Shown here: one piece after another, positions 17,491 to 21,334 of the stretch
How positions within the stretch are numbered: the stretch's first letter is position 1
Layout of the letters: each line of letters starts with the position of its first letter
Assembly (NCBI GenBank): GCA_029225085.1
Contig: JAQXVU010000052.1
Span: 1-64,000, forward strand
Length of the DNA stretch: 64,000 nt
Direction: 5' to 3'
DNA from: Eggerthellales bacterium
GTDB taxonomy: Bacteria; Actinomycetota; Coriobacteriia; Coriobacteriales; Eggerthellaceae
Notes under the pieces: generated by a model
What the model saw: the letters and a program-made list of their open reading frames with translations, nothing else
The model's database searches: none
Told to the model about the DNA's origin: nothing
Translations under genes and position numbers: made by a program

Positions 17491-19734
17491 CTATTCTGAA
17501 ACTTTTTCCATATCCCGCGAAACAAGGTAGCACTTGTGAATCTTGGGGTTACGGGCGAAGTCGTGAGGAATGGTGCGCTCGGTGATGTCCTCTATCTGCA
17601 CGCCGAAGTCGCGGAGCTTGTTCACATCGGGCTTGAAGGATCGCAAGTTACAGGAGAACACCGCGGTGCCGCCCTTCGCCAGAAGTCGGGATACGCCAAT
17701 GAGCAGCTCGGTGTGGTCGCGCTGCACATCCCAAGTTCGACGCCCCATGGCCTTGGAATTCGAGAACGTGGGGGGATCCACGAAGATCAGGTCGTAGCGC
17801 AGGTGCTTGCCACGAGCCCAGCTTATCCAGCTCATAACGTCGCCCTTGTAGTACTCATGCTCAGGGCCGGTAAAGCCGTTATTGCCCATGTTGCGCTTCG
17901 CCCAATCAAGGTAGGTCTGAGACAGGTCGACGGTGGTAGTGGTCTTCGCTCCCCCAGCGGCAGCATGCACGGTAGCGGTACCTGTATAGGCGAACAGATT
18001 CAAAAAGCGGGCTCCCTTTGCCATCTGCCCCACCATCTCGCGGGTGACGCGATGGTCGAGGAAGATGCCGGTATCCAGATAGCCACGCAGGTCGGTTTCC
18101 ATAACCAGGCCGCTCTCGGAGGTATACACCACGTAGGGGTCGAAGTTCTGACCGTACTGGCTGCCGCCCTTATCGCGACGACGAACCTTGGTGAAGACCT
18201 GGTCTGCGGGGATTCCCAGAACCACCGGAGCCAACGCGGAAAGGTCATCGAAACGGCGACGAGCCTTGCCGGCATCAACCGATGCAGGCGCGGCATATTC
18301 GGCAATGTGCAGGAAGGTTTTGCCATCATCGGGGCCCGCACCCTGATACAGGTCGATGGCGGCCGCATATTCAGGCAGGTCCGCATCGTAAACGCGATAG
18401 CAGCCGATTCCCTCGCGCTTGGCCCACTTGCGCCGCTCCTTAGCCACCTTACGCAAGCGATCGGCGAACTGCACGGAGGCTAGGTCGTGCACCCCAACCT
18501 GATGGTCGGCACCGCCGAAGGAATCGGGGATGGTAAGGGTCTGCAAGGTTGCAGGAGGCTCGATGAAGGTGGCAACCGTAACCTGATGGCTTCCGGAGCC
18601 AACCGGCATAACGGAAGCTGCAGGGGCGCCGAAGGAAGCAACAAGATCCTCTCCCGCAGCAAGAACCTGCAGCTCAGGGGTAAGGGCACGACAGGCATCA
18701 AGACAGATGCTCTCACAGGAAATGACGCCGGTATCCGTATCGGTTTGGGTAGAAAGCGCCGAGGCGACCACCACAGCCATGCCCTGCTTCTGCAAGCGAG
18801 CGGAAAGCTGGCCGAAGTACTCCGACAACTGCGCCTGAGGAACATGCATGAGGTGCACGAAAGATCCCAGTCCTGCCCGCTTCACATGATCGACGCCGTA
18901 AGCCAGAGCTCGTGGTGACGACGCGCAGCCAATGAGCATGGTGGAAGAAGCGGATTCCTTCCACGCTGCAAGTCCCTGCTCGAAGGCCTCGTCAGCCTCG
19001 TCGAGAATACGGCCCCACAGGTCATCCTGATGGCCCTTCCACCCATAGAAGCCCCAGGAAGCGCGGGAGAGACCGGGAGCGCAGTTGGAAATGACCATAG
19101 CGGCCTCAGTCAGAACATGGGCCTGACCGCAGCAAGGATCTACCAGGGAGCCGGTGAAGTCCCGAGAAATCTTAGCCAAGGACACGATACCCGCAGCAAG
19201 GGCGCACTCGTAGGTCTGGCTCACCGTTTCCGAATCCCGCAAATAGCCACGACGATACAGGGAGCCGCCGGTCATGTCGAAGGAAACGGACGCACGATCG
19301 TTACGCAATCTGACGATGATCTGACAGCCCGGGTTCTGCGAGTCGACATCGGGACGGGACCCCGTTTTGGCAACCAGCCTGTCTACGATGGCGTCCTTCA
19401 CCCGCAGCTCCGTGAAGTGGGTGTTGCGAAGCTCGGCGTTAGTACCATGGGCTCGCACCGCCAGCGTGGCCCCAGGGGCAAGAATGTCTTCCCAGGGAAT
19501 CTGGTAGACACCGCGATACAGCTCGTCACCAGCCTCTGCGCTGATGCGGCCCAAGATCATGGTGACATGGGAAGTCAAGCGAGACCAAAGACACACCTTG
19601 TACAACGCCTCATCCTCGGCAAAGAAGGCGACGCCGCCAGACAAGGGGCGAACGCGTTTGGCTCCCAAGCCTCGAAGCTCGGTATCGAGCTGATGCTCGA
19701 GGCCCGCCAAACAGCTGGCGAAGTATTCACGCAT
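17491..19734 (-). CDS. rlmKL: RlmKL-type 23S rRNA methyltransferase with a degenerate first domain
   Basis: This 747-residue protein matches the fused RlmL-RlmK layout: a ferredoxin-like and THUMP region to about 160, a first Rossmann methyltransferase domain (about 165-400), then the RlmK domain. The RlmK half is intact (YRVYDADLPEY, LFLNLFAYTGTATVHAA-like block, FVDPPTFSNSK, VQRDHTELL), so m7G2069-type methylation is expected. The first half is unusual: DPMCGSG is replaced by DPCCGQA, and the NPPYG catalytic motif of RlmL is missing, with VVVASALSTQ in its place. Loss of the m2G2445-type activity is inferred. The gene follows sigma-factor transcription on the same strand, with 165 bases between. 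Confidence 0.92.
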   Translation of the reverse strand: MREYFASCLAGLEHQLDTELRGLGAKRVRPLSGGVAFFAEDEALYKVCLWSRLTSHVTMILGRISAEAGDELYRGVYQIPWEDILAPGATLAVRAHGTNAELRNTHFTELRVKDAIVDRLVAKTGSRPDVDSQNPGCQIIVRLRNDRASVSFDMTGGSLYRRGYLRDSETVSQTYECALAAGIVSLAKISRDFTGSLVDPCCGQAHVLTEAAMVISNCAPGLSRASWGFYGWKGHQDDLWGRILDEADEAFEQGLAAWKESASSTMLIGCASSPRALAYGVDHVKRAGLGSFVHLMHVPQAQLSEYFGQLSARLQKQGMAVVVASALSTQTDTDTGVISCESICLDACRALTPELQVLAAGEDLVASFGAPAASVMPVGSGSHQVTVATFIEPPATLQTLTIPDSFGGADHQVGVHDLASVQFADRLRKVAKERRKWAKREGIGCYRVYDADLPEYAAAIDLYQGAGPDDGKTFLHIAEYAAPASVDAGKARRRFDDLSALAPVVLGIPADQVFTKVRRRDKGGSQYGQNFDPYVVYTSESGLVMETDLRGYLDTGIFLDHRVTREMVGQMAKGARFLNLFAYTGTATVHAAAGGAKTTTTVDLSQTYLDWAKRNMGNNGFTGPEHEYYKGDVMSWISWARGKHLRYDLIFVDPPTFSNSKAMGRRTWDVQRDHTELLIGVSRLLAKGGTAVFSCNLRSFKPDVNKLRDFGVQIEDITERTIPHDFARNPKIHKCYLVSRDMEKVSE

Positions 19735-19899: not shown

Positions 19900-21276
19900 C
19901 TAGTCCTCAAGGTAATCCTTCAGCTTGGTAGAGCGGGAAGGATGACGGAGCTTGGCGAGGGTCTTCGACTCAATCTGGCGAATACGCTCACGGGTTACGC
20001 CGAACTCGCGGCCAACTTCCTCGAGGGTGCGAGGATGACCGTCTTCAAGGCCGAAGCGCAGGCTGATGACCTTGCGCTCACGCTCAGCCAGACCATCGAG
20101 CACCTTGCCCAGCTGCTCCTGCAGCATAGAGAAGCTTGCAGCATCGGGAGGAGCCACAGCGCTGTCGTCCTCGATGAAGTCGCCCAGCTGGGAATCCTCT
20201 TCCTCGCCGATAGGGGTCTCCAGGGAAACAGGCTCCTGGGAGATCTTCTGAATCTCGCGAACGCGCTCGGGAGGCAAGCCCATCTTCTCGCCGATCTCCT
20301 CAGGGGTTGGTTCGCGACCGAGCTCCTGCAAAAGCTGGCGCTGAATGCGAACCAGCTTGTTGATGGTCTCGACCATATGCACCGGAATGCGGATGGTACG
20401 AGCCTGGTCGGCGATGGCGCGGGTAATGGCCTGACGGATCCACCAGGTAGCGTAGGTAGAGAACTTGAAGCCCTTGGTGTAGTCGAACTTCTCGACGGCG
20501 CGAATCAGACCCAGGTTGCCTTCCTGAATAAGGTCGAGGAACAGCATGCCACGGCCAACATAGCGCTTGGCGATGGAGACAACCAGACGAAGGTTAGCCT
20601 CGGTGAGCTGCTGCTTTGCATCGAGACCCACCTGCACGATACGGTTCAGGCGGCGCTTCTCGCGGCGCTCGAGCTCCTTGCCCTCTTCCTCAGCCTTGTC
20701 GAGCTCATCCTGAGCAGCGACACCGGCCTCAATCTTCATGGCCAGGTCGATCTCCTCGGCGCTGGTAAGCAGAGGAACCTTGCCGATCTCCTTCAGGTAC
20801 ATGCGCACAGGGTCGCCGGTGAGCATGGTTACCGAGGTATCGGTGCTCTTAGTATTGCGCTTCTTGCGGGAAGAGCGAACCTTGGGCAGGGACACGTTGG
20901 TGGCCGCCTTCAGCTCCTCTTCGGGGATGTCCTCGATGATCTTCTCGGGATTCTCGAAAACCTCATCATCCTTTACGGACTCCTCGGAGCCATCGTCAAG
21001 GTTCAGGGGCTCGTCGAGGTCCTCTACGCTCTCGCCGAAATCGTCAAGGTCGTGATCAGCGGAAACAGCTGCAGCGTCAGCCTTGGGGGCCTTCTTCGCA
21101 GCGGTCTTGCGAGTGGTCTTCTTTGGTTTGTCGTCGCTCTTGGCGGAATCGCGAACCTCTGCAGCAGCGGATGCGCTCTTACGGGTGCTTGCCTTCTTTG
21201 CGGCGGTCTTCTTTGGCGCGCGCTCTGCTTCAGGGGTCTGGGTTTCGGAAGGTTTAATCTCGGAGGCTTCTGCCAC
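19900..21276 (-). CDS. rpoD: Primary sigma factor RpoD/SigA
   Basis: This 458-residue sigma-70 factor directs RNA polymerase to housekeeping promoters. The N-terminus is a lysine/alanine-rich, then acidic, low-complexity extension (1-150). Region 1.2 starts at [11 protein letters not shown]. Region 2 has [34 protein letters not shown] and [10 protein letters not shown]. Region 3 starts at [10 protein letters not shown], and region 4 ends in the [10 protein letters not shown] helix-turn-helix. The GTG at 21276 is preferred: an AAAGGAAG ribosome site sits just before it. A farther in-frame GTG at 21303 would have no such site. A good minus-strand promoter lies upstream at 21335-21363. Confidence 0.97.
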
Positions 21277-21334
21277 GTTACTTCCTTTCAGACTATGTGC
21301 CACCTACATGAGGGCACAGAAATACCGAACATAC

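Follow-up and report, generated by a model that had tools for sequence, protein, structure and literature searches.

The RlmKL gene of the window

A stretch of 64,000 nucleotides from an Eggerthellales bacterium (assembly GCA_029225085.1, contig JAQXVU010000052.1, positions 1 to 64,000), referred to here as the window, was analysed for a reverse-strand gene of the RlmKL type. Its protein combines two 23S rRNA methyltransferase halves: RlmL (the L half), for N2-methylguanosine at position 2445 (m2G2445), and RlmK (the K half), for 7-methylguanosine at position 2069 (m7G2069). The L half of the window protein is changed at three motif sites and the K half has intact motifs; loss of the L-half motif NPPY recurs at 66 of the 110 loci read in the window's family, and 36 genomes of relatives hold a gene with the opposite defect. 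The features of the locus are summarized in Table 1.

The gene is read in one frame from the ATG at 19734 to 17491, with no stop and no frameshift, and is the single RlmKL match in the window genome (91 contigs, listed completeness 100). Residues 2-740 of the protein match the NCBIfam equivalog model for RlmKL (PRK11783.1) at 669.6 bits, where the cut-off is 466; because this cut-off is passed, an NCBIfam equivalog pipeline would label the protein as fully bifunctional. Pfam models detect the ferredoxin-like and THUMP domains of RlmL as well as the methyltransferase domain of the RlmK type, and the Pfam match to UPF0020 covers only positions 15-116 of the 197 in the profile, the later part including the NPPY region being unmatched.

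The original prediction, made from the letters of the window, had read DPCCGQA and VVVASALSTQ in place of the RlmL motifs and FVDPPTFSNSK as preserved in the RlmK half. This was borne out in the open frame of 747 amino acids (VVVASALSTQ at residues 321-330, FVDPPTFSNSK at residues 651-661) and by alignment with E. coli RlmL (PDB 3v8v), which has DPMCGSG and SNPPYG with the Asn of NPPY at chain residue 309. When aligned with three proteobacterial RlmKL proteins, the window protein places S325 at this Asn and A326-L327-S328 at the PPY. Its L half is changed at NPPY, at the motif II acid and in part of motif I (GSG to GQA), and both RlmK motifs, FLNLFAYTG and DPPTFSNSK, are intact. From the fold, the motif II acid column would be expected to serve in the binding of S-adenosylmethionine (SAM). 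Among intact proteins thinned by genus, all 60 of 60 have NPPY, which is also the criterion by which they were selected. The master set, after removal of ten duplicate loci, has 226 loci in which RlmK motif IV was classed as intact. Judged from these motifs, the catalytic loss of the window L half is near certain and RlmK activity is likely to be retained.

Table 1. Features of the window RlmKL locus, and the loci of RlmKL genes with the opposite defect in other genomes
Feature	Position or loci	Strand	Remarks
RlmKL-type gene; RlmL half predicted to be non-catalytic, RlmK motifs intact	17491..19734	-	747 amino acids
RlmL ferredoxin-like domain, retained	19564..19728	-	PF22020, residues 3-57, 53 bits
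THUMP RNA-binding domain, retained	19276..19527	-	PF02926, residues 70-153, 63.2 bits
RlmL methyltransferase fold, UPF0020 match	18823..19203	-	residues 178-304; stops at profile position 116 of 197
RlmL motif I, DPCCGQA for DPxCGSG	19120..19140	-	residues 199-205
RlmL motif II acid site	18922..18924	-	A271; aligned residue D in 94/95 and E in 1/95 intact loci
RlmL motif IV site, SALS for NPPY	18751..18762	-	residues 325-328
RlmK half	17515..18474	-	residues 421-740
RlmK motif IV, DPPTFSNSK, intact	17752..17778	-	residues 653-661
Neighbouring primary sigma factor gene, presumably rpoD-like	19900..21303	-	adjoins window RlmKL
Copies with intact L half and broken or truncated K half	L292-L321, L378-L381, L086, L169		f2 genomes and G101

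Distribution of intact, lost-L and L-less forms

Families, genera, loci and genomes are given as codes (f, g, L and G); f1 is the family of the window and is taken to be Eggerthellaceae, and f2 and f3 are presumably Atopobiaceae and Coriobacteriaceae. When 138 f1 genomes were searched with the window protein, 116 gave a match and 22 gave none. A total of 110 loci in 109 genomes were read; seven genomes with a match were left unread, of which five (G012, G038, G047, G071, G108) matched only weakly and two (G004, G119) had a gene split over contigs. NPPY was lost at 66 of the 110 loci (lost-L form), 18 were fully intact, 23 lacked an L half within the stretch that was read (L-less form), one had an intact L half with a broken K half, and two were unclear, namely a locus with a masked run and a shortened one. 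Lost-L proteins were present in 22 of the 37 f1 genera read. The dead-looking L half of the original prediction is real in the window protein; as the trait of one protein it did not stand, the state being clade-wide.

Twenty of the 23 L-less loci are true stand-alone RlmK genes, with open frames of 356-658 amino acids and no L-like frame in the surrounding fetched stretch; two others, L096 (which displays NPPY) and L113, run into contig ends, and at L112 the gene is fragmented. The stand-alone RlmK of L085 and L089 (genus g41) carry long arginine-glycine-rich N-terminal tails at the position of the former L half, with possible GTG starts; perhaps these tails are a substitute RNA-binding region. 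Two heavily eroded genes were found in genus g23 (L060, L061). Some f1 genomes that are small, complete and of one contig each, such as G046 and G080, gave no RlmKL match in the search with the window protein, and both marks are predicted to be lost in genomes of this type.

Loci outside f1 were a chosen subset of the matches. Outside the order, NPPY was kept in all 16 class relatives read (f8, f11, f12, f13, f15, f17, f18, f22 and f24; L189 is a partial locus). Within the order, f26, f27 and f29 were intact at 7 of 7 loci, and f6 kept NPPY at 14 of 15 loci; the fifteenth, L376, is truncated where its contig stops. The lost-L form made up 4/4 loci in f4, 1/1 in f28 and 22/24 in f3, where an L half was missing from the stretch read at the other two loci (L183 of these lies at a contig end); f5 had one L-less locus and one lost-L locus cut by its contig. 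By its motifs, the lost L half is a clade-wide state in the order, with recurrent changes.

The residues that replace the RlmL motifs differ between families. At the 66 lost-L loci of f1, the commonest residues at the motif II acid site are S (37), A (9) and C (6), and the NPPY columns vary, with a majority residue of 38-62%. At window residues 271-275 of the same loci, a conserved S-x-S-S-P run mostly stands for the D-x-D of motif II, with S at 273 in 58/66; this run suggests a new constraint rather than plain decay. In single-copy lost-L proteins of f2 (e.g. L130, L137, L146) the NPPY site reads D-[LMI]-S-[WF], invariant in 21/21 and conserved to about the same degree as NPPY in intact proteins; in f3 a D or N comes first and the residues after it vary. 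Unlike in f1, the motif II acid is mostly retained in f2 (20 D and 1 E of 21) and f3 (19 D of 22). The f2 L half may still bind SAM, a caveat that is real for f2 and lesser for the window gene, and its D-[LMI]-S-[WF] with the retained acid is possibly a new active or binding site.

For tree building, rows beyond one or two per genus and state were dropped. In the rpoB tree f1 is held together (support 100), as are f2, f3 and f5 (100), and the intact genera are scattered in a poorly resolved f1. On the L-domain tree the state changes five times or more, and the approximately unbiased (AU) test does not reject one shared origin for all lost L halves (p 0.406). Several independent inactivations are suggested by the position of intact families among lost ones and by the differing replacement motifs of f1, f2 and f3; the AU test gives this no support, and a regain of intact genes after the loss is a possible alternative.

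Genomic location and selection on the two halves

In f1, the rpoD-like gene adjoins RlmKL at 57 of 65 loci with lost L and intact K, at 7 of 18 intact loci and at 7 of 23 loci classed as L-absent. The genera that share this neighbour comprise intact ones (g4, g36, g46), nearly all lost-L ones and six L-less ones (g14, g17, g21, g28, g29, g43); the intact genera g10, g38 and g45 do not share it. One locus houses bifunctional, half-dead and halved forms, and since all three adjoin rpoD, the L half is concluded to have decayed in place.

Ratios of nonsynonymous to synonymous substitution rates (dN/dS) were calculated within genera by the method of Nei and Gojobori (NG86) and summarized as the median of genus medians; pairs with a synonymous rate (dS) of the K half below 0.05 or above 1.2 were dropped, as were L071 and L103 in the summary. 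In lost-L genera dN/dS was 0.147 for the ferredoxin-like domain (23 genera), and 0.221 for THUMP, 0.343 for the L methyltransferase domain and 0.181 for RlmK (24 genera each). In intact genera the values were 0.072, 0.064 (THUMP, 3 genera), 0.153 and 0.104, respectively (4 genera otherwise). The RNA-binding parts of lost-L proteins thus have a dN/dS close to that of RlmK, and the L methyltransferase domain evolves faster yet stays below 1, apart from some pairs of genus g52 that reach about 1; such constraint on the ferredoxin-like and THUMP parts would agree with their retention for RNA binding or assembly.

Substitute enzymes and 23S rRNA target sites

A UPF0020 profile search of the window genome gave no protein other than the window RlmKL above the cut-off. 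There were three weak matches, two of which are PrmC and RlmD by NCBIfam models; the third has no model name and is a class I methyltransferase by eye. No substitute RlmL was thus found in the window genome by the UPF0020 search and by NCBIfam models on the weak matches. Since the L half is predicted to be inactive at G2445 and no substitute was found, the window genome probably lacks m2G2445. Across the 138 f1 genomes, the strongest full-profile UPF0020 matches were intact RlmKL genes.

A survey of 23S rRNA genes was asked of 30 genomes, of which 27 gave some 23S match and 25 covered both target sites; no 23S gene was found in the assembly of the window genome. G2069 and G2445 are kept with their surroundings in 25/25 of the relatives, lost-L, L-less and gene-less genomes included, and G046 and G080, which have no RlmKL match, retain both. 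In the f2 genome G185 (loci L264 and L290), the two 23S copies carry GGAGAGACC immediately ahead of the 2069 site, in place of the GGAAAGACC of the others; this difference would be A2059G, at a position linked to macrolide resistance.

Reciprocally broken pairs

Thirty-six genomes hold an RlmKL gene with an intact L half and a broken K half, 35 of them in f2 (genera g66, g69, g83, g143) and one in f1 (G101). NPPY is present in 36/36 of these copies, and the K half shows motif loss in 34 and is cut short in two. In 33 of the 36 the genome also holds a partner gene whose K half is intact and which has no working L motif: 27 of 30 f2 genomes, the four genomes G308, G325, G349 and G408, then G289, and finally G101, whose partner is a stand-alone RlmK. 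No intact-K partner gene was found in G378, G402 and G405, which are 76-89% complete. A single fully intact gene of the extra-copy type was present in G375 (f2), and no second copy was found there.

In a quick tree of the L domain, the extra copies and the G375 gene cluster with g10 and g45, two intact genera of f1 (support 99), and are separate from the resident L halves of f2 and f3 (98); placement of the extra and resident f2 L halves in a single clade was rejected (p 0.0175). A tree with the nine tested extra copies as one clade outscored the free search, and the K loss may therefore have been a single event whose product was then passed on. These results support a horizontal origin of the extra copies but do not prove it: the simplest reading of the trees is that a bifunctional gene came from an f1-like donor and that its redundant K half was lost later, and an ancient duplication followed by many losses is a possible alternative. 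We judge the reciprocal pair to be the most novel part of the results.

A wider proposal would join these observations: that the L half across an order is now a modification-independent 23S assembly factor with new signatures at its former active site (D-[LMI]-S-[WF] in f2, S-S-P in f1), and that several genera regained m2G2445 through a horizontally acquired RlmKL whose RlmK half then died, which left the reciprocally broken pair. We offer this as a tentative proposal, with the odds somewhat against it as a whole.

Interpretation

The explanation we favour, with a probability of about 0.68 as a whole, is that the window gene encodes an RlmKL in which the RlmK half is the only enzyme, predicted from its intact motifs to form m7G2069 of 23S rRNA, and in which the L half would bind RNA or assist assembly. 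With its changed NPPY, motif II acid and glycine motif, the L half would no longer form m2G2445; the ferredoxin-like and THUMP domains and, more loosely, the methyltransferase fold would be kept as an RNA-binding, assembly-assisting module. This module would present helix 74 to RlmK or aid the folding of the large subunit, as is suggested by selection in relatives and by the E. coli RlmL N309A mutant (see below), and some lineages would then have lost the whole L half at the same locus. The claim of the original prediction that only the m7G activity was kept is strongly supported by the three changed motifs, by the same loss in relatives, by the lack of a substitute RlmL in the window genome and by the 33 of 36 genomes with reciprocal genes. 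A non-catalytic scaffold role of the L half, proposed in the original prediction as an RNA-binding platform, is plausible and fits both the dN/dS of the ferredoxin-like and THUMP parts and the E. coli RlmL N309A mutant.

Several observations weigh against the favoured explanation. The L methyltransferase domain is relaxed, with dN/dS near 1 in some pairs of genus g52, and the ratio of L to K dN/dS (about 1.9 in lost-L against about 1.4 in intact genera, of which there are only four) is a modest difference. Of the traits of a pseudoenzyme (a non-catalytic homologue of an enzyme), loss of catalytic residues was seen in the window protein and purifying selection in lost-L proteins of related genera, the window genus being a single genome; no relative is near enough to the window L half for dN/dS, and its branch is long (length 1.1 and 0.74 in two analyses). 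An AlphaFold model of the window protein with three relatives had a mean predicted local distance difference test score (pLDDT) of 54.6, too poor for confirmation of the fold. Finally, the stand-alone RlmK relatives indicate that the L half is dispensable and that the platform is unneeded for RlmK to persist. The last point, together with the relaxed L methyltransferase domain (0.343 against 0.181 for K), the eroded genes L060 and L061 of g23, and the six genera with stand-alone RlmK beside the same rpoD neighbour, would also be expected if the L half were a functionless relic, carried by fusion in front of RlmK and heading for deletion. We consider this unlikely, though a serious contender, given that the ferredoxin-like and THUMP domains of lost-L genera are about as constrained as RlmK, that lost-L proteins persist in more than half of the f1 genera read, and that the N309A mutant of E. 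coli RlmL is still active in assembly (PMC11194073).

Two further explanations would leave m2G2445 in place, and we regard both as improbable. Methylation of G2445 by the L half with an altered active site would accord with the invariant D-[LMI]-S-[WF] and the retained motif II acid of f2, but the f1 NPPY columns are variable and their motif II acid is lost, in the f2 genera g66, g69, g83 and g143 the genomes with lost-L genes have retained another copy, in which NPPY is intact and K has decayed, and N309A alone abolishes m2G2445 in E. coli (PMC11194073). That another enzyme makes the mark in the window genome, and so freed the L half to decay, has parallels in the second, intact-L RlmKL of 36 relatives and in the separate YpsC of B. 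subtilis (PMC7408541); the window genome, however, at a listed completeness of 100, has one RlmKL and no further UPF0020 protein above the cut-off, and two of its three weak matches are PrmC and RlmD. A sequencing or assembly error in a single genome might be suspected from the 91 contigs and the missing 23S gene and is hardly credible: the original prediction had allowed for a frameshift that hid an intact NPPY, none is present in the open frame of the window gene, and the alignment of relatives from independent assemblies repeats the loss at 66/110 f1 and 22/24 f3 loci. An assembly error was ruled out by these relatives.

If the L half is kept as an RNA-binding or assembly-assisting part, the gene bears on the old question of whether the importance of rRNA modification enzymes lies in the mark they leave or in their contact with the RNA; here a natural test would have been made many times, in which the mark is predicted to be gone and the protein part stays, at the residue that was mutated in E. 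coli. The complementary dead-half pairs have the clear appearance of a bifunctional gene having been gained and the two copies then decaying reciprocally; from them, the presence of m2G2445 can be predicted for each individual genome. The clade-wide spread and the reciprocal pairs extend the finding well beyond a single gene.

Comparison with known systems

No report of half-dead or reciprocal RlmKL forms was found among the matches listed in literature searches on rRNA methyltransferases, Coriobacteria, Eggerthella/Collinsella and pseudoenzymes (titles and openings of abstracts). The closest known system is the E. coli RlmKL (YcbY; PDB 3v8v, 3v97), which the window protein resembles in domain order, length class, RlmK motifs and the ferredoxin-like and THUMP domains; in E. 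coli the L half is active and forms m2G2445, whereas that of the window protein is changed in NPPY, the motif II acid and GSG. A helix 74 unwinding activity of RlmKL is described in PMC11194073, which cites Kimura 2012 for it. According to the same paper, the E. coli RlmL N309A mutant, in which m2G2445 is abolished, stimulates assembly of the large subunit like the native L domain; this made mutant shares with the window protein the loss at the same NPPY residue and the retained RNA-binding parts. N309A is, however, one designed change in E. coli, the organism in which the assembly role was measured, whereas the changes in the clade of the window are many and inherited.

Two activities on different proteins, as predicted for the reciprocal pairs, are also known from other bacteria: separate RlmK and RlmL are mentioned in PMC11194073, and YpsC of B. 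subtilis is given as a separate protein in PMC7408541. In those systems, as far as these sources describe them, the activities are encoded by separate genes, whereas in the relatives of the window the genes stay fused with one half broken, or have dropped the L half.
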